Part shown: in pieces, positions 113 through 34,155 of the stretch
How positions within the stretch are numbered: position 1 is the first letter of the stretch
Layout of the letters: each line of letters starts with the position of its first letter
DNA from: a virus
Virus record (IMG/VR): IMGVR_UViG_3300036772_000093
Location: 1-34,722 of that record
Strand: one strand, 5' to 3'
DNA: 34,722 nucleotides
Position numbers and translations under genes: made by a program
Notes under the pieces: generated by a model
What the model saw: the letters and a program-made list of their open reading frames with translations, nothing else
Told to the model about the DNA's origin: nothing
The model's database searches: none

Positions 113-140
113 ATTTAACATAATATAGCTTGCGCGAAGA
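113..140. other. Left prophage junction: hybrid dif-like att site
   Basis: Bases 113-123 (ATTTAACATAA) equal the XerD arm of dif. Bases 124-129 (TATAGC) take the place of the 6-bp central region, which is TATACA in the right copy. Bases 130-140 (TTGCGCGAAGA) match the XerC arm TTATGCGCACC at only 6 of 11 positions. This is the pattern expected when one half comes from the chromosome and the other from a phage site with a degenerate XerC arm. The similarity to the right copy also extends four bases leftward (GCTG) past one mismatch. Confidence 0.82.
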
Positions 141-159
141 CGGGTAGAAATTTACCCGT
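140..159. promoter_or_regulatory. Palindromic operator 1, upstream of the early genes
   Basis: The two 7-bp arms ACGGGTA (140-146) and TACCCGT (153-159) are perfect inverted repeats separated by 6 bases. The site ends 15 bases before the first early gene. The same GGGTA-N6-TACCC core recurs at 2737, 4724 and 25306. It is probably a binding site for a dimeric phage regulator. A transcript could also fold here into a small hairpin, so RNA-level attenuation is an alternative. Confidence 0.6.
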
Positions 160-174
160 TTAGCGTGGGGCTAT

Positions 175-480
175 ATGGTTAACAGTAACTTACAAATAAG
201 TGATAATCAGAGGGTAGGGGAGGCGCGCAAGGCGCTAAACCAAATTTTCCAAAAAGCTTATCAATCAGCAGCTAACGGCAAGCCTTTCGCATACATCATC
301 GACTATGGTTTTTTGCATGTTTCACATGACGAACTTTGCCGAGATACTCCTCGTTTAGTGCGTGATGTTCTGGTTGGCTTATTCCGATACAACATCAGGC
401 ACAAAATCACCTCGCGCGGGTTACGCGTATCTATCCCGAACTTTTGGACTCCTTCGCTTGATTCAAGGGGGAGAGCATGA
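175..480 (+). CDS. Hypothetical early phage protein (101 aa)
   Basis: I do not recognise this protein. It is the first gene inside the left junction and starts 15 bases after the palindromic operator at 140-159, so it is probably the first gene of an operon controlled there. The sequence is soluble, mildly basic and without membrane segments. The C-terminal half (residues 55-95) is rich in Arg and contains a 'RPRLVRDVLVGLFRYN'-like amphipathic stretch, which could bind nucleic acid, but no defined motif is visible. The stop codon overlaps the next start (ATGA at 477-480), indicating translational coupling. A small early regulatory role is only a guess. Confidence 0.7.
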   Translation: MVNSNLQISDNQRVGEARKALNQIFQKAYQSAANGKPFAYIIDYGFLHVSHDELCRDTPRLVRDVLVGLFRYNIRHKITSRGLRVSIPNFWTPSLDSRGRA

Positions 481-1022
481 GCGCCACGCCACTTAATACG
501 GACATCACAACGCAAGATATAGTTAACGTGATGCTGGGCCGCAAATTGCGCACGCTTGATGTCATTGCCGAGCTTGAAAACGAGTTTGGGGACTGTGACC
601 GCAAGCTAATTAGAAATCGCATAGACAACATGCGCGCATCTAAAAGCGTGGATATTGAAGTTATTGAAAAAGAAGACTGTGACGGCAGAGTCAAATACTG
701 GTATCTGAAGAGCGTCAGCAAATCTTATTTCCGCCAATCCTCACTAACTCGACATATGCGTCGGGGTCTGCCTGCAATAGTTAAGCAGCGCAAAAAACGT
801 GTCTATCCCCGTCCTAAATTCACCCCTGATGAAATTAATGCATGCAGATTAGCGAGGGCGGCGCACGTCTTGTGGTCTACGGGTGTTTGGGTTGCACCAA
901 AGCTGGTGTCAACAGGCAGAAAAGGCGACAAAAACAACGCGCAGCCCGTCACGGTGTATGCGCCGCGGTATTCAAACAATCATTTTTTTAATAATAGGGC
1001 TCCGCAATGGAACACAATTTAA
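477..1022 (+). CDS. Putative winged-helix-like early protein (181 aa)
   Basis: The gene begins in a 4-base ATGA overlap with the upstream gene. Residues 10-80 read like a small helical DNA-binding fold. A helix containing 'TLDVIAELENEFGD' is followed by a basic helix with 'RKLIRNRIDNMRA' and then by a two-strand wing-like segment ending in 'KYWYLKS'. The pattern is reminiscent of phage winged-helix proteins. Residues 90-140 are strongly basic (KQRKKRVYPRPKF). The C-terminus is low in recognisable structure. DNA binding is inferred from these features alone, and no family name can be assigned. The last bases overlap the following gene by 16. Confidence 0.65.
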   Translation: MSATPLNTDITTQDIVNVMLGRKLRTLDVIAELENEFGDCDRKLIRNRIDNMRASKSVDIEVIEKEDCDGRVKYWYLKSVSKSYFRQSSLTRHMRRGLPAIVKQRKKRVYPRPKFTPDEINACRLARAAHVLWSTGVWVAPKLVSTGRKGDKNNAQPVTVYAPRYSNNHFFNNRAPQWNTI

Positions 1023-1273
1023 AAATAGCACCTATTCATTTTGCACCGGTTGCAGATGGCCTGAAGCATGCAGAATTACGTATAAATGACCGTGATTATA
1101 AGTGCGGCGATAAAATAACCCTCAATGAATATCAGGGTGGATTCACGGGAGAGTTTGTTGACGTTGTTATCACGCATGTTGCGGACGTTGGCTCATTCGT
1201 TCCGGGGTATGTCTTATTAAGCATCGAATTGATAAATAAAGAAATAACAGGAGAAGCCACGCAAGGGGCTTAA
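1007..1273 (+). CDS. DUF3850 (ASCH/PUA-like) domain protein
   Basis: This 88-residue protein fits the DUF3850 family, which has a PUA/ASCH-like fold thought to bind RNA or modified nucleotides. The family signature is visible at residues 20-42. There, a Lys/His pair precedes 'ELRINDRDY', followed by a 'GD-I-L-EY' strand, and then 'GEFVDVVITHV' (48-58) forms the next strand. Many phages and prophages carry one such gene in the early region, but its function is not established. It overlaps the upstream gene by 16 bases and lies 5 bases before the next one, so it belongs to the early operon. Confidence 0.75.
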   Translation: MEHNLKIAPIHFAPVADGLKHAELRINDRDYKCGDKITLNEYQGGFTGEFVDVVITHVADVGSFVPGYVLLSIELINKEITGEATQGA

Positions 1274-1278
1274 ATAAA

Positions 1279-1572
1279 ATGAATACTGAGCAGCTAAAGC
1301 AGCACATTGAAGATACTGATGATACAGCGCTTGATTTACTGCTGGACGCAATGCCGCGCGGGGCAAGTCGCTTTGTTAGCATAACCAATAATCTCGCCAA
1401 ATATCTTGCAGAGGTAAAGCAGCATTACCCGGAAGCGCGGTTTTACACGTCTGGTGGTGATGGATTTGCGTTGATTCTGGGGGATACGCATAGCGGCAAA
1501 GGTGAAAACCCAAATAACGAGCTTATGGCAATTCAAGCGCCAAAATTGCGCGTCATGGGCGGGGACTGGTAA
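1279..1572 (+). CDS. Hypothetical early phage protein (97 aa)
   Basis: The protein is unrecognised. The first 30 residues are acidic and helical (a run of D, E and L). The middle holds 'SITNNLAKYLAEVKQHYPEARFY', a likely amphipathic helix, followed by a Gly-rich turn, 'TSGGDGFALIL'. There are no membrane segments, cysteines or known catalytic motifs. Its stop codon is directly followed by the start of the next gene at 1573, so the two are probably translated together. It is a member of the packed early operon 175-2737. Confidence 0.65.
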   Translation: MNTEQLKQHIEDTDDTALDLLLDAMPRGASRFVSITNNLAKYLAEVKQHYPEARFYTSGGDGFALILGDTHSGKGENPNNELMAIQAPKLRVMGGDW

Positions 1573-2788: not shown

Positions 2789-3070
2789 ATGGGGCTTCTT
2801 ACTATGATTAACGATGCTGTAAAAAAACTGCAAAAAGAAAAGCGCGTTTTGACGTTGGGTCAGCTTGTTGACGCTGTTTGCAGCGGTGACCTTCGCAACG
2901 AATGCGGGCTAGACCGTCACGCCTTCGCAGAGCTGGTGGGCTCAACTCGAAAAACAATCCGTGGCTATGAAGCATGGGAAGCCGCACCGCGCATGGGTGA
3001 CCTGTTTAATATTGCCACGTCTTTAAATATCAAGTTGCAGATGCCGGGGGCTCACGATGGAAGCAATTGA
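2789..3070 (+). CDS. Helix-turn-helix (XRE-like) regulator
   Basis: Residues 43-62 (HAFAELVGSTRKTIRGYEAW) read as a Cro/C1-type helix-turn-helix. They are followed by 'MGDLFNIATSLNIKL', which is how the end of XRE domains often looks. At 93 residues it is a single-domain protein without an oligomerisation or RecA-sensitive region. It is the first gene of the three-gene operon with the core-binding-domain protein and the integrase, overlapping the former by 14 bases. It lies just after operator 2, so it may regulate its own operon or the early genes. It is the clearest candidate for a lysogeny regulator, because no lambda-type CI is present. An alternative ATG at residue 6 is possible. Confidence 0.65.
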   Translation: MGLLTMINDAVKKLQKEKRVLTLGQLVDAVCSGDLRNECGLDRHAFAELVGSTRKTIRGYEAWEAAPRMGDLFNIATSLNIKLQMPGAHDGSN

Positions 3071-3407
3071 AGCCGAAACTGGAACCGGCACCGGGCTTGC
3101 AGCTGAAGTGTTGGCGATAGCTGAAGCGCGCGCGATAGCTGAAGGGCTGCAAAGCAATACGCTGTCAAGGCATCGAAGCGCAATTAATGCCCTGGCTGAT
3201 ACGCTAAACGGATCCGCCGTGCGTCTTGTGCGTCCGGGGCGCTGGGTGTCGCTGTATGCGCGGGAACCATCCACCAGCACGTTAACTTCTAATATGAAGT
3301 TTCTTGCATCGATTCTGGAATGGACGGAGTCGCAGGGCTACGAAAAGTCAGGCCAGTATATCCGCATTGCGCACGCAATCCGCCAGGCGTTAGCGGTGAA
3401 GGCATGA
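3057..3407 (+). CDS. Stand-alone integrase core-binding-domain-like protein
   Basis: This 116-residue protein resembles only the N-terminal DNA-binding (SAM-like, core-binding) part of the integrase encoded next to it. 'NTLSRHRSAI' (34-43) parallels 'DTITRECHAI' (22-31) of the integrase. 'STLTSNMKFLASILEWT' (74-90) parallels 'TTVRAELNYTAGVLEWT' (66-82), with similar distances between the two blocks and an 'AIRQAL' / 'AIRKTA' helix after them. It lacks a catalytic domain: there is no R, HxxR or Tyr motif. It overlaps the integrase start by 4 bases (ATGA), so the two are probably made together. It may be a partner subunit, a directionality factor or a competitor for the att site. A decayed duplication is the main alternative. 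Confidence 0.7.
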   Translation: MEAIEAETGTGTGLAAEVLAIAEARAIAEGLQSNTLSRHRSAINALADTLNGSAVRLVRPGRWVSLYAREPSTSTLTSNMKFLASILEWTESQGYEKSGQYIRIAHAIRQALAVKA

Positions 3408-4285
3408 TAACGGAGGTCTTACTCAGGATGGCAGAGCGGCGCGGCAAAGACCGCGCCTTGTGTCCTGACACAATTACCCGCGAATGCCACGCAATACGCA
3501 GCACTAACCCTGTGCTGCGTCTCGGCGTCCGTGCTGCGTCTCATCCTGATTACTGGAAGCGACACGCAGAAAACCGCATTAATGAAGGGCGCGCCGCTAC
3601 GACAGTCCGCGCCGAACTCAATTACACCGCAGGCGTGCTGGAGTGGACGGTTAAGGGCGATATTGACATGAAAGTCATGACGCCAGCGTCAGCGACGGCC
3701 ATTTCAAAAGCCATACGCAAGACAGCGCAACAGGTAAGTAAGCGGGTAAAAAGGTTTCCATCACTCGCCAAACCTGCGCGTGTCAGCATTGACGAATTTA
3801 GCCAGACAGCGCGCCAGATTGAGAGCATGAAGAGCCCGCACAGGGAGATTGGTAAGATGGCGTTATGCTTTGGTCTGCGTGCTACTGAAGCCGTATCGCT
3901 GCGTCAAAACTCATTGCTTGATAATGGGATGCTGTTTATTTCAGACAGAACAACGAAGACGCGCGCAAATTTATTACTGCCTGTACCGGTGAAATATATA
4001 AAGCAAATCAGGGGCTGGCTTGAAATTATTGAAGAGGCGAGCGTCAGTTATAGTGCTGTATATATGTACATTGGGCGAAAAGGTTTTGGTTGGTGCCTTC
4101 ATGACATGCGGAAAATGTTCCGAACAAAAGCCGCTGTGCGTGGCGAGGATTATTTAGCCGGTGAGTTAATTCTCAATCATGAAATTAAAGACGTGCCTAA
4201 TGTTTATTTGCAAAAGCCGCCGTACAAAAAAATGCGTGATGCTTTGTTGCATGCGCTAAAAGATTATGACGCCGCGCAAGGCTGA
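3404..4285 (+). CDS. int: Tyrosine recombinase (phage integrase)
   Basis: The catalytic set of tyrosine recombinases is visible in order: Arg159 in 'GLRATEAVSLR', Lys185 in 'TTKTR', His233-x-x-Arg236 in 'LHDMRKMFR', His259 in 'LILNHE' and the nucleophile Tyr268 in 'NVYLQ'. Residues 20-110 form the N-terminal core-binding domain, and no arm-binding domain is obvious. The 293-residue length is close to that of XerC/XerD. I start it at the ATG overlapping the upstream stop. The ATG at 3428, which follows GGAGG at 3412-3416, is an alternative giving 285 residues. A terminator follows. It should catalyse integration and excision at the dif-like att site, either alone or with host XerC/XerD; which of these applies is not decided by the sequence. 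Confidence 0.9.
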   Translation: MITEVLLRMAERRGKDRALCPDTITRECHAIRSTNPVLRLGVRAASHPDYWKRHAENRINEGRAATTVRAELNYTAGVLEWTVKGDIDMKVMTPASATAISKAIRKTAQQVSKRVKRFPSLAKPARVSIDEFSQTARQIESMKSPHREIGKMALCFGLRATEAVSLRQNSLLDNGMLFISDRTTKTRANLLLPVPVKYIKQIRGWLEIIEEASVSYSAVYMYIGRKGFGWCLHDMRKMFRTKAAVRGEDYLAGELILNHEIKDVPNVYLQKPPYKKMRDALLHALKDYDAAQG

Positions 4286-4316
4286 TTGCTGACCACAAAC
4301 ACTGCGTGACTTCCAG

Positions 4317-4338
4317 ACCGCCTCCGGGCGGTTTTTTT
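4317..4338 (+). terminator. Terminator after the integrase
   Basis: ACCGCC (4317-4322) and GGCGGT (4327-4332) form a GC-rich stem with a 4-base loop and are followed directly by seven T. It separates the integrase operon from the intergenic region and the late tail genes. Confidence 0.88.
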
Positions 4339-4723
4339 ATGCCTAAAAATCGGCCTGGATAATGTTAAGCAATTGTTGCTCGCAAACGAGCATAGCCTTG
4401 TTAAACGTAGTTAATAATCTGTTAAAAATGAGCGCTGTTGATAACTTTGTGTGAATCACGAAGCGAGAGAAAAGGGAATAGGAAACACAGGTCGCACGAT
4501 GAGAAACGGCGAAAAAATATATATTCAATATAAACAACAAGATAGGCTTGGCTGTCATTTTTTGAGTAATAAACGCCCGTTTTTGAAGCGTTATATTATT
4601 TTTTTCAGTCGGTTGGATTTTTAAAAGTATAAAGGGAGAAAATAACGCCAGAAAATTAGCGAGTTACAACGACGTTATATGTGGAGGGGGAACACTTAAC
4701 ACCTCTGAGCATGGTTAATATAC

Positions 4724-4739
4724 GGGTAAAAAAATACCC
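4724..4739. promoter_or_regulatory. Palindromic operator 3 in the intergenic region
   Basis: GGGTA (4724-4728), six A residues, and TACCC (4735-4739) match the core and spacing of the operators at 140 and 2737. The site lies 22 bases before a second inverted repeat at 4761-4781, so this may be a regulatory region. Confidence 0.55.
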
Positions 4740-4760
4740 ATAAAAGCGAGAGTATTAATA

Positions 4761-4781
4761 AATGTAACCTGCACTTACATT
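4761..4781. repeat. Inverted repeat AATGTAA-N7-TTACATT
   Basis: Arms of 7 bases at 4761-4767 and 4775-4781 are perfect reverse complements. The 7-base gap and lack of a T-run make it look more like an operator than a terminator. The cognate protein is unknown. Confidence 0.4.
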
Positions 4782-5166
4782 CTCGGTTAGTGCTGGGCGC
4801 GCCAATCCACCAACAAAATCCAACTAAATCATAGATATATAAAAACAAAGCCATGAATCGCACCAGAATCAGCCCGTAAATATTACGGCGCAGTGGTCAA
4901 ACCAGTCATTTGGCTCCGTTGACATGGAAATTAATCGAGCACCGGTGAGTGCGAAGCAGGTGTGAGGAGCGAGCTCTTCAGGTATTTATTTTGGCCCGTG
5001 TTTGTTTCAGGCCTTATGTCATGGGCATTGGCTGGGATGCGCATATTTATTCAAATGGGAACACGGAGAGAATATTACCCGCATGGCTTTGTAACAGTTT
5101 TTAGGCACAGACAAGGAAGGGGTCGTGACGGCTAATTTGAGTGTGTGAGAGTTGGCACGATTATTA

Positions 5167-5262
5167 ATATCCACAGGGCGTGCCAGTATTCATGCGGCTT
5201 TGCGTGGGGTTGACGAAAGGAGAAAAATAAGCAGGTAGGGTGAAATCAGCCATTTATCCACA
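5167..5262 (+). other. Two DnaA-box-like sites
   Basis: TTATCCACA at 5254-5262 is a perfect consensus DnaA box, and ATATCCACA at 5167-5175 differs by one base. Both lie in the AT-rich intergenic region of a phage that shows no replication initiator gene. Whether they act as an origin is speculative; two boxes can occur by chance. Confidence 0.3.
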
Positions 5263-5353
5263 GCCAGCCTATTTTGTGTCTTGTCGTGCTTCACCTGACG
5301 GCCTCACATGATGATGTTGTGATTGCTCCGACTATATAAAGGAGTAAATGCAA

Positions 5354-6295
5354 ATGGCCTGGGGGCGAATTTTTCAAATCATCATTAATTGCACAACGGG
5401 CGAGAGCATCACGATTAATGATGCTGACTGTGACTTTTCCTGCGTGCGTGACAACGCGAAAGAACCGAACGAGGCGGAGTTAACGCTCTGGGGGATTTCA
5501 GCCAATACACAAAACCAGATAGCCGTTTCAGGAAGCACTTTAAGCATTGCGGCGGGTTACCGTGATGAGGGGTTGTTGACACTTTTTCAGGGGGAACTGA
5601 TAGCCGCAGTTACTGTCAAGCCTGCGGAAGTCTACGGGCTAAAAATCAAAATCTATGAATCGCTTATCCCGTTCCGGGCATCAGTAACAAAGCGGTCATT
5701 TAAGAAGGGTCAAAGGCTGGTCGAGGCGGTCAGGCTTGTTGCCGCAGATATGGGGTTGGGTTGTCGCTTATCCAGCGGGGCTGAAGCGTTGACGCTGGAT
5801 AAGCCGGTGTCGGGTGTGGCTCTTTCGCGCGACGTGCTTAACAGCTTGTGCAAACCTGTTAATGCCACATGGTCTATTCAGTATCAATCCCTGATGGTGA
5901 CAGCTGGTGATTCCATGACAACCGGCTCCGCGCTGTTCTCCCCGGACAGCGGGCTGATTGGCGCGCCAACACTGAAGCTACATACCCCGAAGCGCCATAA
6001 GAAAGGCAAAACCACTGCGAGCAAAAAGAAGAAGCATTCCGTCGCTACTTACCCGTGGCCTCCTAAAAACTCCCATACCGATTACACAAAGGGTGCGCGC
6101 CGCCAGATTGGCACAGTTGAGGGCATTAACTGGCGTTCCGTGCTGCGTGGCGGCGTTGAAGTTGGCGACAAGGTGCAGCTCGAGTCACCGTCTTTGGGGC
6201 AGGGCTGGTGGGTCACCGTCACGAAAATTACGCACCGTTTCGGCACGCAGGATTTAAGCGTCTGGGAATCGCAGTTTGAAGGGGTCATTGAATGA
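5354..6295 (+). CDS. Putative baseplate hub protein
   Basis: The protein of about 313 residues precedes the spike gene, with which it overlaps by 4 bases. That is the position of the hub in contractile-tail phages (T4 gp27 or Mu gp44 role). The N-terminal half is beta-rich, with a 'LTLWGISANTQNQI' segment and 'LFQGELIAA', as in hub proteins that trimerise beneath the tail tube. Residues 225-240 form a strongly basic linker (repeated KK) before a C-terminal OB-like part, 'VGDKVQLESPSLGQGWW'. I prefer the ATG at 5354, nine bases after AAGGAG, over the ATG at 5348. It is the first gene of the tail block after the intergenic region. The hub assignment rests on position and general pattern. Confidence 0.7.
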   Translation: MAWGRIFQIIINCTTGESITINDADCDFSCVRDNAKEPNEAELTLWGISANTQNQIAVSGSTLSIAAGYRDEGLLTLFQGELIAAVTVKPAEVYGLKIKIYESLIPFRASVTKRSFKKGQRLVEAVRLVAADMGLGCRLSSGAEALTLDKPVSGVALSRDVLNSLCKPVNATWSIQYQSLMVTAGDSMTTGSALFSPDSGLIGAPTLKLHTPKRHKKGKTTASKKKKHSVATYPWPPKNSHTDYTKGARRQIGTVEGINWRSVLRGGVEVGDKVQLESPSLGQGWWVTVTKITHRFGTQDLSVWESQFEGVIE

Positions 6296-7008
6296 GAGCT
6301 GTTAGTCAGGTCAGCGCCATTGTTCAGGAAGAGCTCGAGTCCGCATTATTTACCCTGGAAGCAACGATTGTGTCCGTGGCCGGTGGCAAAGCGGTTGTGC
6401 AGCCCACAGCCCGCCGCATTTTTGGTGACAACGATGAGCCTTACGAATACGAGTCGGTAAGCGATGTGCGGCTTATTTCGCTTTTGTGGAACGGTGGCAA
6501 TTCCGGGGTAAGTGGTGCGGTTAAAGCGGGTGACAGCTGTTTGTTGATAGCTATTTCTCATGCTGACGCGCAGTCACCAGACCATAAAACATTGTCCGCC
6601 TGTGCGGCCATAACCGGCTTTAGCGATACGGCAGCACATGCGATGCCAGATAGCGTGGGGATCCGAATTTTCCACGCAGCCGCAAATATCACCCTGGATG
6701 ACAACAACATCACGATTGATAACGGCGGCGGGGCAAAGCTGGTGCTGGATGGAGGCGGAATAACACTCGATGCCCCGGCAGGCTTCACGGTTAACGCTAA
6801 TACGCAAATTAACGGCAACGTAGGCATTGCTGGCGACATGACCACGGCGGCAGGTTCGGGCGGCTCTGGCCGTGCTGCGTTTGCGGGTGATGTTCAGGTC
6901 AGCGGCACCAGTGCGGCAATTGACCACGTTTCAGGCGGCATTAGTGGTAGCGGACATACACACAAAGAGAACGGCGACGGCGGCGGCATTACCAACCCGC
7001 CTCAATAA
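6292..7008 (+). CDS. Baseplate spike protein (Gp138/Gp45-like)
   Basis: This 238-residue protein has the two parts of a membrane-puncturing spike. The N-terminal OB-like domain (residues 15-115) carries 'TIVSVAGGKAVVQPTARRIF' and is of the Gp138-N type. The rest is a beta-helix region full of short N/D/G repeats, such as 'ITLDDNNITIDNGGGAKL'. The tip ends with His222-x-His224 in 'GHTHKENGDGG'. In related spikes, HxH histidines at the tip bind an iron ion. The trimer would sit at the centre of the baseplate and pierce the outer membrane on contraction. The 4-base overlap with the hub gene supports joint assembly. Confidence 0.85.
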   Translation: MRAVSQVSAIVQEELESALFTLEATIVSVAGGKAVVQPTARRIFGDNDEPYEYESVSDVRLISLLWNGGNSGVSGAVKAGDSCLLIAISHADAQSPDHKTLSACAAITGFSDTAAHAMPDSVGIRIFHAAANITLDDNNITIDNGGGAKLVLDGGGITLDAPAGFTVNANTQINGNVGIAGDMTTAAGSGGSGRAAFAGDVQVSGTSAAIDHVSGGISGSGHTHKENGDGGGITNPPQ

Positions 7009-7019
7009 AGGAAGAGACA

Positions 7020-7403
7020 ATGAAACTTAGCGAACGCGCCGCGCAAGTGGCTATTGAGAATGGCGGATTTTTGCAGGCGGGAGACGCCACATTCAACATC
7101 AACACGGGTGATGTTATTGAGGTCACGCCTCGGATTGGGCTTGAGGTGCTGGACATTGATAAGCGCCCGATGTTTGACGCGCCATTAAATATGGTGATGG
7201 CCAATTGCCGCCAGGCTGGCGATGGGTATGTGCCTTATTACAGCGATGTTATTTATGAAACGTCACATCAGGCCGCGCTGGCACAGATGCTTAACGATGC
7301 CGGTGAAGGTTTTGACCCTGATGACCTTATTGACTGGCAATCTCTTGACGCATGGGTGTCAGTTATCACCGTCAGGCAGGTAACAAACTATGCAAATAAA
7401 TAG
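7020..7403 (+). CDS. Hypothetical baseplate-region protein (127 aa)
   Basis: The gene has a strong ribosome-binding site (AGGAAGAG) and lies between the spike and the gp25-like gene, overlapping the next gene by 14 bases. I do not recognise a family. Residues 10-55 appear beta-rich ('TFNINTGDVIEVTPRIGLEVL'). The C-terminal half is acidic, with 'DPDDLIDWQSLDAWVSVI'. The position suggests a small structural or assembly protein of the baseplate. It has no membrane segment or signal peptide. Confidence 0.7.
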   Translation: MKLSERAAQVAIENGGFLQAGDATFNINTGDVIEVTPRIGLEVLDIDKRPMFDAPLNMVMANCRQAGDGYVPYYSDVIYETSHQAALAQMLNDAGEGFDPDDLIDWQSLDAWVSVITVRQVTNYANK

Positions 7404-7605
7404 CGAGCAATACAGAGTGGCTCGAGACGGCCATTTCTTTTCACGCACTACCCCTGAAAACGGGGAGGCTGTCACGCTGTGCATGCCTACACCGCGCGGG
7501 CGTCGATTTATACCCGTTGGTAACGTCAGCGAGGTTAAAGAGCTTGGGCAGGGTAAATGTCTGGTGACCATCCACGACTTAGCGCCGGTGGCGGGGTTTT
7601 ACTGA
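7390..7605 (+). CDS. Small hypothetical tail protein (71 aa)
   Basis: This small basic protein is beta-rich throughout, with a 'TPRGRRFIPVGNVSEVKEL' segment, and is unrecognised. It overlaps the upstream gene by 14 bases, and its stop codon TGA at 7603-7605 shares its last base with the ATG of the next gene. It is probably co-translated with the baseplate genes. A structural or assembly role is inferred only from position. Confidence 0.6.
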   Translation: MQINSEQYRVARDGHFFSRTTPENGEAVTLCMPTPRGRRFIPVGNVSEVKELGQGKCLVTIHDLAPVAGFY

Positions 7606-7955
7606 TGCTGGATTTATTGCAGGACAAAGACGGGGTCATCCTGAATAAAAGCGGTGACCTTGTGCTTGACGGTGGGGTCGATGGCATTGCCCAGCAGTGC
7701 GAAATCAGAATTGGCACCAATAAGGGGGAGTGGTGGCTTGATGAAACGCTGGGTATCCCGTGGTTTTACGGCGTAATGGGTCAGAAACTACCCGCGCCCA
7801 TAGTGGGCAAGATGATTGCTGAAGAAGGCATGAAGACAGAAGGTGTCACAGACGTTCGTATTACGCGTGCGGTAATGGTGGCCGGTAAGCTGGCAATAAC
7901 CTTTGATGTTGTGGCCGGTCAGGAGTCAAAGGGGGTGGCCATAAATGGGAATTGA
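7605..7955 (+). CDS. Baseplate wedge protein, gp25-like
   Basis: The 116-residue protein has the look of the T4 gp25 / P2 gpW family: 'DLVLDGGVDGIAQQCEIRIGT', then 'GEWWLDETLGIPWFYGVMGQ', then a helix and a final 'VTDVRITRAVM' strand. These proteins form the inner wedge of the baseplate and contact the sheath. The ATG at 7605 overlaps the preceding stop and gives the expected length. An in-frame ATG at 7557 would add 16 residues that do not look like the family. It lies directly before the baseplate J gene, the usual order, with an 11-base overlap. Confidence 0.85.
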   Translation: MLDLLQDKDGVILNKSGDLVLDGGVDGIAQQCEIRIGTNKGEWWLDETLGIPWFYGVMGQKLPAPIVGKMIAEEGMKTEGVTDVRITRAVMVAGKLAITFDVVAGQESKGVAINGN

Positions 7956-22768: not shown

Positions 22769-22778
22769 GGAAGTGGAA

Positions 22779-23714
22779 ATGAACAAAACCGAAATTACGC
22801 AGATTATGCAGTCCTATTGCGCTGGCACGCTGCGTGCGAATGGACAGCAGGTCAACGTTGATGAGCAGGGCATTATCTTTGCTGATGATGTGATTGCGGT
22901 ATCAAAGAAGATTTACGAAAAGAAAATGCCGGTTCCGCAGGCGTTAACGCTTTTCCCGCAGGAATCCGATCTGACTGACGCGGATGAATGGTTTGAATAC
23001 CGCATGTATGACGCGCAAGGCATGGCCAAAATTATGGCCGCGTATGGTACAGATATGCCGATGATGACCGTAAAAGGCGAGGCCTTCATTGCGCGCATGT
23101 ATACAATCGGGCTGGGCTACGGCTGGACGTATAAAGAAATGTTGCAAGCGGCGAAAAAGGGCATTCCGCTTAAACAGATTGAAGGCACGCAGTGCCGCAA
23201 AATTCATGAGCGCACGGTCAGCAATCTGTTATGGAAGGGTAATGCGGAATACAACATTGTTGGTTTTTCTGACCATCCTAATATCCCGGAGGTGGCGGTT
23301 GCAGGTGGCTGGGCAGCGGCAGACGGTGACGCCGTCTGTGATGATGTGACGGCCATTATTTCCGCCGTCAACGGCACATCCGTTTTTGACGTAAATAAGT
23401 TTCAGGTGCCAGGGCAGGCATGGACGATTATGCAGAGTAAGCGTGTGCCGGATACAAGCGATACGGTGCTGTCATTCCTGCGCAAAGCGTTTCCTGAAGT
23501 CATCTTCAGCAAAAACACCGATTTAGATGCTGATGGTTCGTGTATGGCACTCGATATGAACGAAGAGAACTTCACGCAGGGTACGCCGGTACTCTTCCGC
23601 CAGCTGGCACCACAGCCAAAAGGCATTGATATTGCCGTACCGTGCATATCGATGACATGCGGCGTTATCGTTCGTCAGCCTTTGGCTGCGGCTAAATCGA
23701 CAAGGGTGGTGTAA
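22779..23714 (+). CDS. Major capsid protein (DUF2184 family)
   Basis: The 311-residue protein has the features of DUF2184 major capsid proteins. The segments 'PQALTLFPQESDLTDADEWFEY', split over the start of the lattice domain, and 'MYTIGLGYGWTYKEMLQAAK' (near residue 108) match, followed by 'ERTVSNLLWKGNAEYNIVGF', where phage capsids of this kind place their loop-bearing domain. A GGAAG ribosome-binding site precedes the ATG at 22779; the frame itself is open further left in another gene. It forms the icosahedral shell in its HK97-like fold, made and matured with the protease/scaffold upstream. Confidence 0.9.
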   Translation: MNKTEITQIMQSYCAGTLRANGQQVNVDEQGIIFADDVIAVSKKIYEKKMPVPQALTLFPQESDLTDADEWFEYRMYDAQGMAKIMAAYGTDMPMMTVKGEAFIARMYTIGLGYGWTYKEMLQAAKKGIPLKQIEGTQCRKIHERTVSNLLWKGNAEYNIVGFSDHPNIPEVAVAGGWAAADGDAVCDDVTAIISAVNGTSVFDVNKFQVPGQAWTIMQSKRVPDTSDTVLSFLRKAFPEVIFSKNTDLDADGSCMALDMNEENFTQGTPVLFRQLAPQPKGIDIAVPCISMTCGVIVRQPLAAAKSTRVV

Positions 23715-26053: not shown

Positions 26054-27412
26054 ATGGCAGACTTGCGCCGCCTGTTTAATATCTCAATCACCAGACAGAC
26101 CAAAGCAGCCTCCTACGGCACCTTTGGTGTGGGGCTTGAGATGTCACCCGCGCCTGGATTTTACGGCGTGACTATTGAAAATTTTGAAAGCATCACGATG
26201 GATGATGTATCAAAAACTGTTAAGGCCTACACGCTTTACGATGATGTCATTGACGACGGCGTAAAAGGTGCCGCGCTTAAAGCGGCCAACGCTTACTTTG
26301 CGCAATCGCCCACGCCAGACACGCTTGTCATTGCGGATATTTCCGGGGCGTTCGAGTCCGTGGCCATTCTGCTTAACGGGGAGGATTCCGGCGTAGAAAA
26401 CGTTGTTGCAGCAGTGGCTACGGTAGTGAATAAAGAGGTGCTCACTGCGACTTTTGACGGCACGGTGTGGACAGGAGAGGCCGCAGCAAACATCACCGCT
26501 GACGAAAATGACCCGTTGAAATATCAGGTAACGGGGCGCGTAGTGTTTGTTGCTGGGGCTGACGTGTCCGTGGGTTATTCAGACGTTAAACCGGATTCCT
26601 TCACTGACGTTATCACCGATATTCGCCATCAAAATGACGACTGGTTTATGTCGTTTACCACGTCGCGCAACCCTGCGTTATTGACTCAGATTGCAGACTG
26701 GACAGAAGCGCAGATTAATAAAATGGCGGCGCTAATTGACGATGGCGGCGCGGTCTATAGTTCGGATCCTAAGTGGCCGGCAGGCGGCATCACACAGTAT
26801 CTTTTCGATAAGGCGCTGGCGGGTAGTTTTGCAGTCACGACGCGTATTGAATCCAATTATCTAGATGCCGCATTAGCAGGCCGTTGTCTGACAATGCAAC
26901 CGGGGTCTGAGACATGGGCGCTTAAGCCATTGTCCGCCGTTGTGGCGGATAATTTCACAGAAACGGATTATCAGACGATTAAAGCCATTAACGGCAACAC
27001 GTTTGAGAACTACGGTTCGGGCGTAGTCGTCACGTACCCTGGCACCTGCGGTGACGGCGAGGCTATTGAAGTCGTGCGTTTTTGCTATTGGCTTGCTGAC
27101 TACATTCAAAAAAATCTGGCCACGATGGCCATCAATCAAAAGAAAATTCCGTATGCGCCATCAGGGATTGAAATGGTTTGCATGAATATCGAGTCCAGTT
27201 TGAAAACCGGCCAGGACAATGGCGGCATTATGGAAAGTTTCTCAAACGGCACTGACTATGTGCGCGGGTTTACTGTTACCCGACCGACAATGCAGCAAAT
27301 CACCGCAGCACAGCAGATAAAAGGCAATTTGTCTGTCCCGTTCAATTTTTACCTGAGCTATGCCATCAAGCACGTTGACGGCATCGGCACTGCGTTAACC
27401 TGGGGGATGTAA
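26054..27412 (+). CDS. Tail sheath protein (DUF3383 family)
   Basis: The 452-residue protein fits the DUF3383 sheath-like family. It starts with 'LFNISITRQTKAASYGTFG', has a central 'WFMSFTTSRNPALLTQIADW' region, and ends in 'AQQIKGNLSVPFNFYLSYAI', which resembles the C-terminal strand exchanged between sheath subunits. Sheath subunits surround the tube and contract on infection, so this gene shows that the phage is a myovirus. The tube gene follows after 3 bases, as is usual. The ribosome-binding site lies in the purine-rich stretch before the ATG. Confidence 0.9.
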   Translation: MADLRRLFNISITRQTKAASYGTFGVGLEMSPAPGFYGVTIENFESITMDDVSKTVKAYTLYDDVIDDGVKGAALKAANAYFAQSPTPDTLVIADISGAFESVAILLNGEDSGVENVVAAVATVVNKEVLTATFDGTVWTGEAAANITADENDPLKYQVTGRVVFVAGADVSVGYSDVKPDSFTDVITDIRHQNDDWFMSFTTSRNPALLTQIADWTEAQINKMAALIDDGGAVYSSDPKWPAGGITQYLFDKALAGSFAVTTRIESNYLDAALAGRCLTMQPGSETWALKPLSAVVADNFTETDYQTIKAINGNTFENYGSGVVVTYPGTCGDGEAIEVVRFCYWLADYIQKNLATMAINQKKIPYAPSGIEMVCMNIESSLKTGQDNGGIMESFSNGTDYVRGFTVTRPTMQQITAAQQIKGNLSVPFNFYLSYAIKHVDGIGTALTWGM

Positions 27413-28325: not shown

Positions 28326-28465
28326 TACAATCAGGCCTGATTTCCTACGACGCTGTGAAATCAGGCCTTGCTTCCTTCGATGACATCATGCGCGCCGCCG
28401 CAGTCTTAGAGTTCGATTCCGCTGTATCTGCGGCCATTTCCAACGCCGAGCAACCCAAAAAATGA
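27840..28465 (+). CDS. Tail assembly chaperone, -1 frameshift fusion (GT)
   Basis: The first part is read in the frame of 27840, and the remainder in the -1 frame. The slippery heptamer is A-AAA-AAA at 28205-28211, in the correct register (codons AAA at 28206 and 28209). After slippage, translation continues from codon 28211 without a stop until TGA at 28463-28465, giving about 208 residues. The -1 frame contains 'VRAEITIWRVIQSGLISYDA', which looks like a genuine T domain. It overlaps the tape measure start by 4 bases. The T part has no strong start of its own; its only candidate is TTG at 28271. Confidence 0.8.
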
Positions 28466-30432
28466 CAGAACAAACAAAAGAGCTAGTCACGAAAGTTGAC
28501 GTACAACCTGACCTTGCCGGGTTGATTGCATTCGAAAATGAAATTGACCGCGCCATCAGCAAAGTTAAACAGCTGGATAGCGCGATTAAGCGGGTTGGAG
28601 AGCTGCGCCCGGCAAGCCGATATTCTCCCCCGGTGAACAATCCAGGCGCGACAGCTGCCGCCGCTGGGCTGTCTGCCGGGTTGGGTGCAAATCTGGTTAA
28701 TCGTGGCGCGTTGGGGCCGCTGGTGCGCAAGGCATCGCAGGATGTCGCTAAAAACGCAGCGCAGACCGCAGCCACGGGCGTTAACCTTGCGATTGAAGAT
28801 ATGCGCGGGCGCATGATATCTGGCCGTGGGATGGGGCTATTGGGCGGGGCTGGTACTGCTACGGGGGGCGGGGCGGGATTTCCAGCCCTGGCTGGTGGTG
28901 CTGGTGGAATTGGCGGGAACCGGGGTGGTTTTTCGCTTTTTGGTGATGAGGGGCCGCGCAAAATTAGTGGCCTCGATTTAAACGGCACAGACTGGAATAA
29001 GGCAGCAGGCGGGAAGGTAACCCGCGCCGCAGGTAGTCAGGGGAGCGGCCTTAAAATGCCTGACATGATGGCCGGTGCTGCCGCTGCGGTAGGGTTATCG
29101 ATGGGGCTAAATGCCGTTGCAGACAGCATGGACAGGATCCAGTCGAGCGAGGCACAGCTTGAACGTCTGCCGCAGACCATCGGCAGTAGCAAAGATGCCT
29201 ACATAGCTCTTAATGCAGCTGCAACCGACGTGCGCAGCAACGGTGACGCATTTATCACCACGTATACGAATATGGCCACAGCTACAGAGAAGTTGCATTT
29301 AAGCCAGGCGGAAACCATCAAATCAACACAGGGCATGGTAAGCGCCTTACAACTGGGTGGCGGAAGCAAGGTTGCAATTGATAATGCGCTTTACCAGATG
29401 GGCCAGGCTTTTTCATCTGACCGATTCGGCGGAGATGAATTTCGGTCATTTATGGAGGCCATCGGCACGCAGGCACCAGAGGTGGCCAAAGCATTTGGCA
29501 CCGATGTCGCAGGCCTGCGCAAAATGTCTGAAGCGGGAAAGCTGACCGCAGAAACAATGGTCAAGGCGTTTGCATCTATGGCTGATAAAAACATGGATAT
29601 GCTTAATAAACAGGGCTGGACGTGGGGGCAGGTCACAACAGTCATGAAAAATGATTGGGACAGTTTCTTAGCTACAGCAACACAAAATGGGGAGTGGTCA
29701 CACCTTATGTCATGGGTGGCCACAAACGTTATTCCAGTGTTCAAAAGCGCAGAAAAAGGCGTTGCTAAGTTCTGGAACACGACAACGGATGAGAGCAAGT
29801 CCAGCATACTGATTGGCATTCTGGGTGCCATTGGTGCCGCCTTTGTCGCCCTGGCAATCCCGGTGTTGGCGGCAACATGGCCATTTTTGGCCGTGGGTGC
29901 GGCGGTGTTCCTTCTTTATGAGTTATTCCAGGAGTTTAAGCACTGGATGGACGGCAGCGCTAAAACGATTTTTGATAGTCTGTTTGGTGCGTTTGATGAG
30001 TTTGAAAAGCGCTACCCGACGATAATTAAGGGCTTAAAGCTGTTGGCTGACGCGATGAAATCCACAAGTAGCGATGTTCCAAATGATATTACCGTGGGGG
30101 ATTTACGGAAAGAAAAAGGCTTACCAGCAAAAGACACTGATAATGGTGATGCAGAGGAGGGCAAAAAGACAGGGGCTCTTGATGTGGTTGAGTGGTTTCT
30201 GAATGATATAATGACGATACCGCAGCAGCTTAAAGACCTCCCTATGTTGCCGCCAGCGTTGACCCATAGCGCACCAGTGAAGCAAACCACAATCACCAAT
30301 AGTGGAAACACGACAATCACTGTGGCCACGCCTGAAGACGCCGCAGCGGTAGCCAATAGTCGGGACAAAGCGTTTGTTGGGCAGGTTAACGGCGGACTTG
30401 ATAATATGGCTGAAGGTGGCGGGTATTTATAG
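28462..30432 (+). CDS. Tape measure protein
   Basis: The 656-residue protein contains the tape measure domain of about 190 residues (210-400): 'LERLPQTIGSSKDAYIAL', 'TEKLHLSQAETIKSTQGMVS', then 'DRFGGDEFRSFMEAIG' and 'MDMLNKQGWTWGQV'. Gly/Ala-rich linkers precede it. A long hydrophobic region near residues 450-490 may enter the membrane during DNA ejection. Its length sets tail length, here a fairly short tail. It starts in a 4-base overlap with the chaperone fusion gene. A moron gene follows it. Confidence 0.93.
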   Translation: MTEQTKELVTKVDVQPDLAGLIAFENEIDRAISKVKQLDSAIKRVGELRPASRYSPPVNNPGATAAAAGLSAGLGANLVNRGALGPLVRKASQDVAKNAAQTAATGVNLAIEDMRGRMISGRGMGLLGGAGTATGGGAGFPALAGGAGGIGGNRGGFSLFGDEGPRKISGLDLNGTDWNKAAGGKVTRAAGSQGSGLKMPDMMAGAAAAVGLSMGLNAVADSMDRIQSSEAQLERLPQTIGSSKDAYIALNAAATDVRSNGDAFITTYTNMATATEKLHLSQAETIKSTQGMVSALQLGGGSKVAIDNALYQMGQAFSSDRFGGDEFRSFMEAIGTQAPEVAKAFGTDVAGLRKMSEAGKLTAETMVKAFASMADKNMDMLNKQGWTWGQVTTVMKNDWDSFLATATQNGEWSHLMSWVATNVIPVFKSAEKGVAKFWNTTTDESKSSILIGILGAIGAAFVALAIPVLAATWPFLAVGAAVFLLYELFQEFKHWMDGSAKTIFDSLFGAFDEFEKRYPTIIKGLKLLADAMKSTSSDVPNDITVGDLRKEKGLPAKDTDNGDAEEGKKTGALDVVEWFLNDIMTIPQQLKDLPMLPPALTHSAPVKQTTITNSGNTTITVATPEDAAAVANSRDKAFVGQVNGGLDNMAEGGGYL

Positions 30433-31834: not shown

Positions 31835-32179
31835 ATGAATAACACAATACAGGAGCTAACGGAGCAAGTGACTAAATGGATTGAAGTTTATTTTCCGGCT
31901 ATCTGCGCGGGGTTAATGGCTGCAACGGTTTCAATTTTTATGGACATCAGAGCGGGTGAACCACCAAAAAGAACCGCGTCGGGAGGCATAATTTGCGGGA
32001 TGGTGGCGACGGGTTGTTATTCGTTCGCAATATTTTGCGGCATGCCGCCAGAGGCTGGCATTTTTTTTGGTGCATATGTTGGATTCAGAGGTGCGGATAA
32101 CATCAAAGACACATTTGTATCGATAGGTGATTCATTCCGTAAACGCAAGTCTGGAGGGGTTGAGAATGCAGATAAGTAA
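31835..32179 (+). CDS. Holin
   Basis: The 114-residue protein has three hydrophobic segments, near residues 19-37, 49-68 and 71-84, and a basic C-terminal tail ('RKRKSGG'). Size, topology and position directly before the endolysin indicate a class I holin of the phage lambda S group. It would form lesions in the inner membrane and release the endolysin, which has no signal peptide. The ribosome-binding site is weak, which could keep expression low. It overlaps the endolysin gene by 14 bases. Confidence 0.82.
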   Translation: MNNTIQELTEQVTKWIEVYFPAICAGLMAATVSIFMDIRAGEPPKRTASGGIICGMVATGCYSFAIFCGMPPEAGIFFGAYVGFRGADNIKDTFVSIGDSFRKRKSGGVENADK

Positions 32180-32603
32180 TAACGGCATCAATTTTATAAA
32201 ACGTGAAGAAGGTGAAAAACTCACGGGTTATGAGGACACGCGCGGCATTCCAACAATCGGCGTGGGCCACACCGGGAGCATTAACGGAAAGCCGGTTGCT
32301 GTGGGTATGAAAATAACCGCCGAGCAATCATCCGCATTATTAAATGGGGATTTAGGATGGGTGGAAAGCACAATCAGTAATTATGTTAAATCCTCACTAA
32401 ACCAAAATCAGTATGATGCCCTGTGTAGCTTTATCTTTAATGTGGGCGCAAACGCGTTTAAAGGGTCAACAATGCTTAAGCTGTTAAACGTGGGCAATTA
32501 TCCTGGTGCATCAGATGAATTTCCGAAGTGGAAAAAGTCAGGTGGCGACCCGGATATTTTGTTACCTCGTCGCCAGCGAGAAAGAGCGTTGTTTCTTGCA
32601 TGA
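32166..32603 (+). CDS. Endolysin, T4-lysozyme type (GH24)
   Basis: The catalytic triad of T4-type lysozyme is present with its exact spacing: Glu15 in 'REEGEKL', Asp24 in 'YEDTRGIP' and Thr30 in 'PTIGVGHTG'. The enzyme cleaves the glycan bond between MurNAc and GlcNAc in peptidoglycan. At 145 residues it is compact, and it lacks a signal peptide or SAR helix, so it depends on the holin. The ATG at 32166 has GGAGG eight bases upstream. The stop overlaps the start of the spanin gene by 4 bases. Confidence 0.95.
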   Translation: MQISNNGINFIKREEGEKLTGYEDTRGIPTIGVGHTGSINGKPVAVGMKITAEQSSALLNGDLGWVESTISNYVKSSLNQNQYDALCSFIFNVGANAFKGSTMLKLLNVGNYPGASDEFPKWKKSGGDPDILLPRRQRERALFLA

Positions 32604-33139: not shown

Positions 33140-33170
33140 GCCAAATCTGGTGGAGCACTTGTTGTCATTT

Positions 33171-33196
33171 GCCCGGACATCACCGGGCTTTTTTTT
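33171..33196 (+). terminator. Terminator after the lysis genes
   Basis: GCCCGG (33171-33176) and CCGGGC (33183-33188) form a stem with a 6-base loop, followed by eight T. It ends late transcription and insulates the toxin-antitoxin pair. Confidence 0.9.
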
Positions 33197-33202
33197 ACCC
33201 GC

Positions 33203-33235
33203 TTGATGGATGGTAACGAATACGTTACCATCCAT
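33203..33235 (+). promoter_or_regulatory. Autoregulated promoter/operator of the toxin-antitoxin pair
   Basis: A perfect 13-bp inverted repeat (33206-33218 and 33223-33235, each containing GGATGGTAACG or its complement) surrounds a 4-base centre. It overlaps a promoter-like pair, TTGATG at 33203-33208 and TACCAT at 33226-33231, with 17 bases between them. The AAGGAGG of the toxin gene follows at 33243. This is the arrangement expected for repression by the antitoxin complex. Confidence 0.75.
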
Positions 33236-33255
33236 TCACCGCAAGGAGGTTAAAA

Positions 33256-33594
33256 TTGATAGTTAAATACTACGAAACGGAAGACGGTGACATCCCGCTT
33301 GAGAAGTGGCTGACAAAGAACAAGGCCGCAATGGCCAAAGTTTTTGCAGTCACACAACGGCTTAAGGACGGGAATATGTCGTCAGTGAAATGGTTGTCAG
33401 GGCGTCCGGGCATTGGTGAGTATCGCGTTAACTGGGGTGCCGGTCTGAGGGTTTACCTGATGCAGGACGGCGATGAAATCGTGATTTTACTCTGTGCCGG
33501 TTTTAAAGACAGTCAGGACAAAGATTTAGCCAGGGCGGAGAGTTTCCGGGCAGACTATTTAAGAGGTAAAAAATATGCCAGCGGTAGACATTGA
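33256..33594 (+). CDS. Type II toxin, RelE/HigB-like (HI1419 family)
   Basis: The 112-residue protein matches the addiction module killer family exemplified by Haemophilus HI1419. The signatures are 'PLEKWL' (14-19), 'GEYRVNWGAGLRVYLMQDGD' (54-73) and 'LLCAGFKDSQDKDLARA' (78-94). Members of the RelE superfamily usually cleave mRNA on the ribosome. It starts with TTG, six bases after AAGGAGG. It precedes its antitoxin, overlapping it by 20 bases. The location next to the right attachment site suggests stabilisation of the prophage. Confidence 0.9.
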   Translation: MIVKYYETEDGDIPLEKWLTKNKAAMAKVFAVTQRLKDGNMSSVKWLSGRPGIGEYRVNWGAGLRVYLMQDGDEIVILLCAGFKDSQDKDLARAESFRADYLRGKKYASGRH

Positions 33595-33871
33595 TGTTAT
33601 GTGGTCGAGGCTCCTTAAGGAGGATCCAGGCTCACGCAAAGCGATACTTGAAGAGATTCACGAACTCATCAGAGACGGTGAGATAGAAACGGCAAAAGGC
33701 ATGCTGCGCACGCTCATAAAGGCAACGTGCGGTTTTCCTGCAATTTCAAATGAGATTGGCCGCAACTCAAAATCAATCATGCGCATGCTGTCGCCAGATG
33801 TTGACCCCGGCGTTAAGGCATTTATGGCCGTAGTGAAAGCCGCAGAGCGTCAATCACTGAAGATGTTGTGA
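33575..33871 (+). CDS. Type II antitoxin with helix-turn-helix (HI1420 family)
   Basis: The 98-residue protein is encoded after the toxin, in the order known for the HI1419/HI1420 pair. Residues 54-72 ('FPAISNEIGRNSKSIMRML') form a helix-turn-helix, as in that antitoxin family. It should neutralise the toxin and, with it, repress the palindromic promoter at 33203-33235. The N-terminal 45 residues, probably helical, are longer than in the shortest members of the family. A terminator follows 60 bases downstream. Confidence 0.82.
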   Translation: MPAVDIDVMWSRLLKEDPGSRKAILEEIHELIRDGEIETAKGMLRTLIKATCGFPAISNEIGRNSKSIMRMLSPDVDPGVKAFMAVVKAAERQSLKML

Positions 33872-33931
33872 TTTTTTGAATGACGTAAAGGCGCAGCGGT
33901 AATACGTTTGCAATGCCTGAAGCATAACCAG

Positions 33932-33956
33932 ACCCGGCCACCGCGCCGGGTTTTTT
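33932..33956 (+). terminator. Terminator at the right end of the prophage
   Basis: ACCCGGC (33932-33938) and GCCGGGT (33945-33951) form a stem with a 6-base loop, followed by six T. It ends the toxin-antitoxin transcript. Between here and dif (34128) I see no gene, only a half operator GGGTA at 34044. Confidence 0.88.
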
Positions 33957-34127
33957 CTGCTCGATAGTTACAAAGTCTGCGTTGTGAACGGGATAGGGCG
34001 GGGTCAATCGTAAAAATGTGCTGTTTGTAGTTGAAATAAACGCGGGTAAAAACTAGACTACGGGGAAGAGTTTAGCAACAAGTGCGTAAAGCGCATTGAC
34101 TGGCCTGTCTTCGTTCAAATTCGCTGT

Positions 34128-34155
34128 ATTTAACATAATATACATTATGCGCACC
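34128..34155 (-). other. dif: Chromosomal dimer-resolution site dif (right prophage junction)
   Basis: Read left to right, the site is the XerD arm ATTTAACATAA (34128-34138), central TATACA (34139-34144) and XerC arm TTATGCGCACC (34145-34155). The reverse complement equals the E. coli dif sequence as I know it. XerC and XerD recombine here under FtsK control to resolve chromosome dimers. The first 15 bases are repeated at 113-127. The prophage thus supplies the XerD half of this site, and dif stays intact after integration. Confidence 0.92.

Follow-up and report, generated by a model that had tools for sequence, protein, structure and literature searches.

How does a temperate tailed phage settle in dif, a site that its host needs whenever a chromosome dimer forms, and leave that site intact? 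The locus that raises this question is the IMG/VR virus record IMGVR_UViG_3300036772_000093, a stretch of 34,722 bases that was analysed whole and is called the window here (position 1 is its first letter). A sequence-only reading had placed in it a 34-kb tailed phage that sits in dif and restores it, and this picture is borne out by an exact two-sided empty site in an Escherichia coli relative and by dif at all five right ends available (5/5). We propose, with a probability of roughly two in three, that the window holds a temperate tailed phage of an enterobacterial lineage that has dif as its chromosomal attachment site, whose own integrase (Int) catalyses the reaction and whose insertion rebuilds dif. 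Insertion exactly in dif, the rebuilding of dif and conservation across the lineage are established by sequence comparison.

Junctions of the prophage with dif

The element and its flanks are arranged as follows.

1-112: left host flank, where dif has its XerD side; bases 77-112 resemble DNA directly left of dif in other genomes
113-140, plus strand: attL, with XerD arm 113-123 (11/11), centre TATAGC 124-129 (4/6 to dif) and phage arm 130-140 in the XerC position (6/11)
128-34127: prophage body between the common 15-bp core and the rebuilt dif; homology with the prophage of Buttiauxella sp. B2 reaches both hybrid sites
34128-34155, minus strand: attR, the rebuilt full dif (28/28), with a phage-derived XerD arm and host-derived XerC arm; dif is found at other right ends too
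34156-34722: host DNA right of dif, on the XerC side; in six genomes the DNA that follows dif on the right aligns with the first bases of this flank

At the right end, 34128-34155 on the minus strand matches E. coli dif at 28 of 28 bases, a match for which shuffled sequences give an expectation of zero even at up to three mismatches. The 15-mer ATTTAACATAATATA, which is the XerD arm plus four central bases, occurs at 113-127 and again at 34128-34142, the two exact copies lying 34,015 bp apart from start to start. The left copy runs on as TATAGC and TTGCGCGAAGA, the latter agreeing with the XerC arm at 6 of 11 positions. The perfect dif, its partial copy at that distance and the degenerate XerC arm had all been pointed out in the sequence-only reading, and each was confirmed. 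A third copy of the 15-mer, with one mismatch, lies at 2501-2515 (shuffle expectation 0.00).

What does the site look like without the prophage? Host left flank, dif and host right flank should then be contiguous, and this is found base by base in E. coli ECONIH4, which carries a prophage of the lineage, compared with 0H26, which does not. In ECONIH4 attL lies at 695119-695146 and dif at 660886-660913, delimiting a prophage of 34,233 bp; 0H26 has one contiguous dif in that place. To the left of dif 3,762 of 3,762 bases are identical, and from dif rightwards the first 4,235 bases are; beyond these the ungapped comparison collapses, with 1,038 mismatches in 5,739 overall. The ECONIH4 attL has exactly 19 bases in common with the empty dif of 0H26, counted from the XerD end. 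The last base of the XerC arm is the same variant in the ECONIH4 attR and in 0H26, so the XerC arm in attR follows the host. A chance origin of the repeats was considered and is ruled out by this empty site together with the shuffle expectations.

Elsewhere the same comparison is partial. It succeeds on the left side for the IMG/VR locus L127, whose left flank is identical to that of a genome with an intact dif (G396) at 79 of 79 bases, and by short homology for B2, where an empty site in G012 agrees over 57 bases on the left at 93% (15 of them dif) and over 49 on the right at 96% (28 of them dif). The window's own flanks, with 112 bases on the left, give homology only. Its 36 bases left of position 113 agree with DNA left of dif (dif taken at 0-1 mismatches) at 28 of 36 in each of three genomes (G035, G200, G319) and weakly, at 24 of 36, in G157; 300 random 36-mers gave a mean of 19.9 and a maximum of 25 matching bases. 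On the right, the first 33-77 bases beyond dif resemble DNA right of dif in G231, G239, G075, G251, G094 and G396. In G053, 146 bases of the far right flank were matched at 88%, and no dif with up to six mismatches was present in the 19 kb of G053 that were inspected. A query of dif plus the right flank next to it matched 2,914 of 5,426 E. coli genomes over short lengths only, at most 84 bases among the matches listed; without dif the right flank gave zero matches in E. coli.

The arrangement recurs wherever a junction of the lineage can be seen. A search with the recombinase led to two IMG/VR loci (L002, L003) and to Buttiauxella sp. B2, in which homologous phage DNA is bounded by a perfect dif on its right and by the window's hybrid on its left (L004, 7198; the perfect dif is on a separate contig), and in which the host DNA right of dif is a different one; the limits of the element in the window are therefore real. 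Searching for the left and right hybrid patterns yielded L099, with the window's hybrid and an Int 48% identical, and L100, a right end. The Int of L099 in turn led to 26 IMG/VR loci, among them L110, its own record. Five of these 26 (L110, L114, L118, L127, L134) reach left of the phage, and all five (5/5) have the XerD-arm hybrid; of the other 21, 20 start inside the phage to the right of attL, and L112, which matches only from base 717, is uninformative. By blastn, relatives of the L114 int gene are present in 3 of 5,426 complete E. coli genomes (CX12, CX08, ECONIH4). In CX12 and ECONIH4 the gene belongs to a prophage that lies within a few kb of hipA and measures 34,498 and 34,233 bp from hybrid attL to dif. 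L117, L118 and L130 have the near-match ACTTAACAAAATATA roughly 1.2 kb beyond the start of Int, and L123 has a looser one; it was rejected as an att site.

Counted over the lineage, all left ends that reach past the phage (9/9: the window, B2, L110, L114, L118, L127, L134, CX12, ECONIH4) have the XerD-arm hybrid, and ATTTAACATAA is present in 9/9. The centre is TATAGC in three of them (window, B2, L110) and TATACA in the other six, and the 11 bases that follow agree with the XerC arm at between two and six positions. Every right end (5/5: window, B2, L100, CX12, ECONIH4) has a perfect XerD arm and a dif with at most one mismatch (28/28 in the window, B2 and CX12; 27/28 in L100 and ECONIH4). 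In the window type the centre is TATAGC in three left ends and TATACA in the three right ends, which in this small sample argues for an exchange towards the XerD side and fits Int or XerD.

How would one exchange give these two junctions? The phage site, attP, would have the XerD arm in full (11 bp), with four or all six of the central bases, and a degenerate or unrelated sequence in the XerC position. Exchange within the common 15-19 bp would join the XerD arm of the phage to the XerC arm of the host at the right junction, giving a full dif; at the left junction it would join the host's XerD arm to phage sequence, so that the XerC side there is damaged. Since attR takes its XerD arm from the phage and its XerC arm from the host, the phage carries the very half of dif that it displaces. 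The compact tyrosine recombinase of the phage (3404-4285) would catalyse the reaction. The damaged left site would be a poor substrate for XerC/XerD, so that the prophage would be kept while the rebuilt dif resolves dimers and the host keeps this function. In this the dif phage is like phages that enter tRNA genes and restore the end of the gene.

Outside these junctions the search was less productive. The closest matches of positions 10001-34722 in the phage collection were six records with up to 90 bases each, none a close relative, and the recombinase matched six records there, all distant and every one below 60% identity. An alignment of Int found one locus in the genome collection and no strong relative besides B2 in 392 family genomes, 17 other genomes matching more weakly (best E values 7.8e-7 to 9.8e-4); the alignment was of the window type, so L099-type phages may have been missed. 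A broad hotspot inferred from the exact 15-mer was discarded: 267 of the 392 family genomes have the 15-mer, and two copies occur, among the matches listed, in seven (G003, G159, G232, G274, G306, G338, G389). One copy in G003 is this prophage, G232, G274 and G306 are genomes of less than 1 Mb, and the copies in G338 are 1.3 Mb apart; 29 loci with the 15-mer were inspected, of which 22 were dif and seven were not. In three Buttiauxella genomes with dif on a contig of Mb size (G006, G008, G013), the matches listed include no integrase within 100 kb of dif.

Directly on the XerD side of dif, E. coli ECONIH4 and 0H26 have a large gene and two more genes for site-specific integrases (L137 43293-48590; L138 5885-9501), and B2 has a weak integrase match (L004, about 6229-6684); different elements may collect on this side. 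G006 has a second dif-like site with two mismatches (L019, contig 2, 91482-91509) besides the dif of contig 1. Left of attL, the L099 record (G401) has two large adjacent open reading frames (ORFs; reversed coordinates 4012-6108 and 6118-7827) that are GTPase-like by eye and possibly dynamin-like or defence genes.

The integrase and its genetic setting

Int belongs to a short cluster of genes near the left end.

2789-3070, plus strand: helix-turn-helix (HTH) protein, candidate repressor; PF01381, E=2.4e-6, with RstR and HipB-type matches under curated cut-offs
3057-3407, plus strand: stand-alone paralogue of the N-terminal (core-binding) domain of Int; profile comparison, probability 93.4, E=2.5e-7, 95 columns
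3404-4285, plus strand: Int, compact tyrosine recombinase of 293 aa; phrog_1, invariant catalytic residues, structural model and fold matches

That the phage has a tyrosine recombinase of its own, as had been claimed, is upheld by PHROG profiles, alignment and fold, with one correction: Int has no match to Pfam PF00589 at E<=0.001, nor any in NCBIfam. A PF00589 match is an aid to detection and not the definition of a tyrosine recombinase. Both phrog_1 and phrog_216 match all 25 Int homologues, and R159, K185, H233, R236, H259 and Y268 are invariant in 25/25; these positions come from the alignment, and we take them to have the catalytic R-K-H-R-H-Y roles. A model built from the 25 sequences has a mean predicted local distance difference test (pLDDT) score of 85.5 and a predicted template modelling (pTM) score of 0.57 and is weak at 113-126; it replaced a poor model from three sequences (pLDDT 41.4). 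With it, Foldseek returns an archaeal Xer protein first (E 6.6e-4, template modelling score 0.41). Among the VIA-align matches are the catalytic domain of SSV1 Int (Z 13.1, 153 residues aligned, root-mean-square deviation (rmsd) 3.1), Brujita Int (5vfz, against model residues 1-290; Z 12.9, 253 aligned, rmsd 10.5, 11% identity) and archaeal Xer (4a8e; Z 12.6, 242 aligned, rmsd 10.2), and matches within 1 Z count as tied. As the large rmsd to 5vfz shows, the two structures do not agree in how their domains are placed. The fold matches listed include neither XerC nor XerD of E. coli, which is no evidence of a difference. To judge from its length and alignment, the protein has no space for an arm-binding domain; Int consists of core-binding and catalytic domains only, as in arm-less integrases of the Brujita type. 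It lies left of the baseplate genes in B2, L003, L099, CX12 and ECONIH4, and in the last two it is the sole site-specific recombinase annotated between attL and attR. The N-terminal-domain paralogue is also found directly upstream of int in L002, L003 and L099, and it could regulate Int. Between int and the baseplate genes lies a stretch of about 1 kb (4286-5347) with no plus-strand ORF of at least 60 aa, and CX12 and ECONIH4 have a gap of about 1.1 kb near the equivalent place.

How might int be controlled? The candidate signals are these.

142-157: GGGTAGAAATTTACCC, a palindrome that separates attL from the first gene; resembles an operator and is an RNA hairpin as well
2737-2752: second exact palindrome, GGGTAGAAAGCTACCC, just before the HTH gene
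142, 2737, 4724, 7778, 9509, 15362, 18286, 23579, 25306, 27266, 30759 and 32303: GGGTA-N6-TACCC palindromes with at most one mismatch
33930-33953, plus strand: stem-loop that resembles a terminator, with a T run behind it, past the end of the late/lysis genes; kept in the window, B2 and L100
34031-34059, plus strand: promoter-like TTGAAA-N17-TAGACT reading towards attR; hexamers and spacing invariant in 3/3 close right ends (window, B2, L100), with a varying spacer

The promoter-like site stands about 70 bases left of attR, after the terminator. The consensus scan on its own is no evidence (2 found, 1.9 expected) and the terminator scan on its own is weak (3 found, 1.7 expected). The right ends of CX12 and ECONIH4 have the block TGTTTGTAGTTG in common, with the hexamers only in looser form, and promoter-like sites inside the left operon are no more frequent than in shuffled sequence. 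On the circular phage genome, transcription from the right-end site would cross attP and enter the left operon, to which int belongs; after integration, site and operon would stand at opposite ends of the element. Control by such a separation of promoter and int would resemble the integration-dependent systems with arm-less integrases (PMC6109161; this and the other papers are cited here for passages of their texts).

The palindromes point to a second layer of control. GGGTA-N6-TACCC with up to one mismatch occurs 12 times in the window against 0.36 expected, and 0 of 100 shuffles reach 12; there are 14 in the parts of the B2 prophage and 11 in the L003 record, and one each in the ECONIH4, CX12 and L099 phages. 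Dispersed in this way they look like repressor operators across the genome, as in P1 or mycobacteriophage L5. A repressor is then likely too, which weakens the idea of a regulatory switch by promoter splitting alone. A stem-loop is predicted between attL and the first start codon (window 132-175, and eight other left ends), its stem sequences differing among phages; it may be an operator or an RNA element.

The remaining genes are those of a tailed phage.

175-480, plus strand: first gene of the left operon, 101 aa; ORF with no Pfam, PHROG or NCBIfam match
5348-9369, plus strand: baseplate region, including hub-like and baseplate J-like proteins (phrog_196; PF04865)
13556-15070, minus strand: ERF-family recombination protein (PF04404, E=5.1e-10)
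16921-18291, plus strand: large terminase (PF04466, E=6.9e-30)
18281-19639, plus strand: portal protein (PF06381, E=7.7e-22)
22683-23714, plus strand: major capsid protein (PF09950, E=3.3e-27)
26054-27412, plus strand: DUF3383 protein, possibly the tail sheath (PF11863, E=1.4e-21)
28462-30432, plus strand: tape measure protein (PF20155, E=3.2e-34)
31835-32603, plus strand: holin and lysozyme (PF05106 and PF00959)

A single unit that combines genes for terminase, portal, capsid, tape measure and lysis marks a temperate tailed phage (Caudoviricetes). The narrower label of myovirus is favoured by the baseplate J and DUF3383 matches and by gene order, and no sheath was identified by name. At the right end (33256-33871) a RelE/ParE-family toxin-like gene (TIGR02683, E=5.1e-18) is followed by a possible antitoxin gene.

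Catalyst of the exchange

Which enzyme carries out the exchange? Phage Int is most likely the catalyst, because it is the only site-specific recombinase identified, is catalytically complete and belongs to phages most of whose arms have no recognisable XerC arm, the arm kept in the Xer-dependent elements whose arms are described in the passages cited. When eight distinct phage arms are pooled, agreement with the outer nine positions of the XerC arm is 18 of 72, as chance alone would give (25%), which favours Int over host Xer alone. Several points weigh against this proposal. The pooled count is uneven, with 12 of 27 in the window-type arms (6.75 expected; three related arms, hence not independent) and 6 of 45 in the other five, and the window's phage arm agrees at 8 of 11 positions with the XerC arm of the plasmid site psi, in the form that we assume for that site. 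On the better match of the window-type arms, XerC might still bind in the window itself; the E. coli type appears to have lost the XerC arm, and the window type has a degenerate one that is perhaps still an arm. Nor does the phage arm follow Int: L114, L118, L127 and L134 have arms of other types, although their Int proteins are 79-92% identical to that of L099, whose arm is of the window type. Int lies more than 3 kb from attL, and it is the only site-specific recombinase identified by a scan that covered some but not all ORFs of the window and was not aimed at serine recombinases. In VW-6S and Solano (2 of 4 named records examined), Int homologues sit in the early/replication region beside another annotated integrase. 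Finally, the exact empty site comes from a relative, and the window's own flanks are placed by homology.

Some of these points suit a tailed phage that behaves as an integrative mobile element exploiting Xer (IMEX), in which host XerD, with XerC, would perform the exchange and the phage recombinase would have another role, such as resolving phage multimers. We consider this unlikely. The whole XerD arm is kept in attP, the two XerC-side central bases that differ in window-type ends place the exchange towards the XerD side, and the window's phage arm agrees in part with XerC arms (6/11 for dif, 8/11 for psi in its assumed form). TLCphi integrates through XerC/XerD despite one highly divergent attP arm (PMC5357621). 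The homologues beside a separate integrase in VW-6S and Solano fit another role for such recombinases, as does Vibrio phage VPHZ6, which has an Int homologue, a ParA gene and a Xer-like site at 21340. On the other side, TLCphi, the gonococcal genomic island, EludIMEX-1 and the gokushoviruses keep the XerC arm (PMC5357621, PMC7062461), whereas the five arms outside the window type match it below chance; the Xer-dependent gokushovirus gave no lysogens once either arm of its dif was removed (PMC7062461); and a catalytically complete recombinase has been kept in 25/25 members. A scan of four of the six named phages with Int homologues found an exact XerD arm in VPHZ6 only; that site (L103, 21340-21367), with 8 of 11 XerC-arm positions by eye, is possibly the multimer-resolution site of a phage-plasmid.

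A mixed reaction, with phage Int in XerC's place and host XerD on the common XerD arm, would accommodate the full XerD arm in all right ends, a variable phage arm that fits no single motif and the Xer proteins among the fold matches of Int. However, a phage that has to rebuild dif would keep the XerD arm in any case, and none of the papers listed from open-licence PubMed Central offered a precedent; we think such a reaction improbable. Least of all do we credit an insertion that was not site-specific, with repeats from chance or later rearrangement. The window has only 112 left-flank bases and the B2 prophage is split over two contigs, but the exact two-sided E. coli empty site and the agreement of 9/9 left and 5/5 right junctions contradict it for the lineage. 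We return, then, to integration by Int, of which a fuller version can be put forward tentatively, at less than even odds: a tailed-phage lineage with its own arm-less dif integrase that uses only the XerD half, rebuilds a working dif and leaves a junction unusable by XerC/XerD for excision, and whose attP lies between an early promoter and the int operon, so that integration would cut int off and make a directionless recombinase effectively one-way.

Comparison with known elements at dif

What would such a phage add to what is known? The host's need for dif upon dimer formation means that an element occupying dif must not break it. In the passages of the literature cited here, the known dif elements solve this with host Xer enzymes and hence depend on host control; a tailed phage that replaces half of dif with its own recombinase would, if our interpretation is right, be another solution, with mirror-image arm usage. 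It opens to test how the damaged dif avoids excision, whether the prophage affects dimer resolution and whether the position of attP sets the life-cycle switch, and E. coli strains with and without the prophage exist. Among the papers listed from open-licence PubMed Central, none deals with an integrase-bearing tailed phage that occupies dif; most subscription journals lie outside this coverage, so novelty is unproven. The terms dif, XerC and XerD do not occur in PMC2605562, on Xylella prophages, and XerD appears in one passage only of PMC6536676, as a family name.

Among integrases, the nearest parallel is with the arm-less, Brujita-kind enzymes, which are two-domain like Int. A further likeness is the place of attP, in the repressor gene there and between the promoter-like site and the int operon here; these systems, with their integration-dependent immunity, differ from this phage in hosts, target and regulation (PMC6109161). 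Phages and islands that enter tRNA genes with a tyrosine integrase carry the piece of the target needed for its restoration, as here, but their target is a gene and not a recombination site (PMC4383910). The Islander work notes that the Xer proteins integrating islands at dif are not island-encoded (PMC4383910). NO16 phages, like the elements of the Xer review, LME-1 and the gokushoviruses, are thought or shown to use host Xer (PMC9966536). LME-1 of Legionella is, like this phage, a mobile element in dif with a modified dif at one end; unlike it, LME-1 belongs to a single-recombinase host system in which host XerL is necessary and sufficient (PMC9765430).

Insertion at dif, one mark of IMEX, is found in this prophage lineage. 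The described IMEX elements at dif, among them CTXphi, VGJphi, TLCphi, the gonococcal genomic island and EludIMEX-1, use host XerC/XerD (PMC5357621). They have dif as target, as here, and the gonococcal island also has an intact dif at one end and a modified one at the other (PMC5357621, PMC9765430). Enterogokushovirus prophages likewise sit at E. coli dif, with one flanking dif conserved and the phage-derived one varying; in contrast to this phage they are 4.3-4.7 kb long, have no integrase and vary in the spacer and XerD arm (PMC7062461). They formed no lysogens in xerC or xerD mutants, complementation restoring xerC only (PMC7062461). The two differences that count are the enzyme and the arm. 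IMEX elements rely on host XerC/XerD, whereas here a 34-kb tailed phage has its own tyrosine recombinase; of the halves of dif, TLCphi, the gonococcal island and EludIMEX-1 retain that of XerC (PMC5357621), whereas this lineage retains that of XerD and has a XerC arm that is degenerate or unrecognisable. What sets this phage apart from the dif elements described in these passages is that it is an integrase-bearing temperate tailed phage that targets dif with the opposite usage of its arms.

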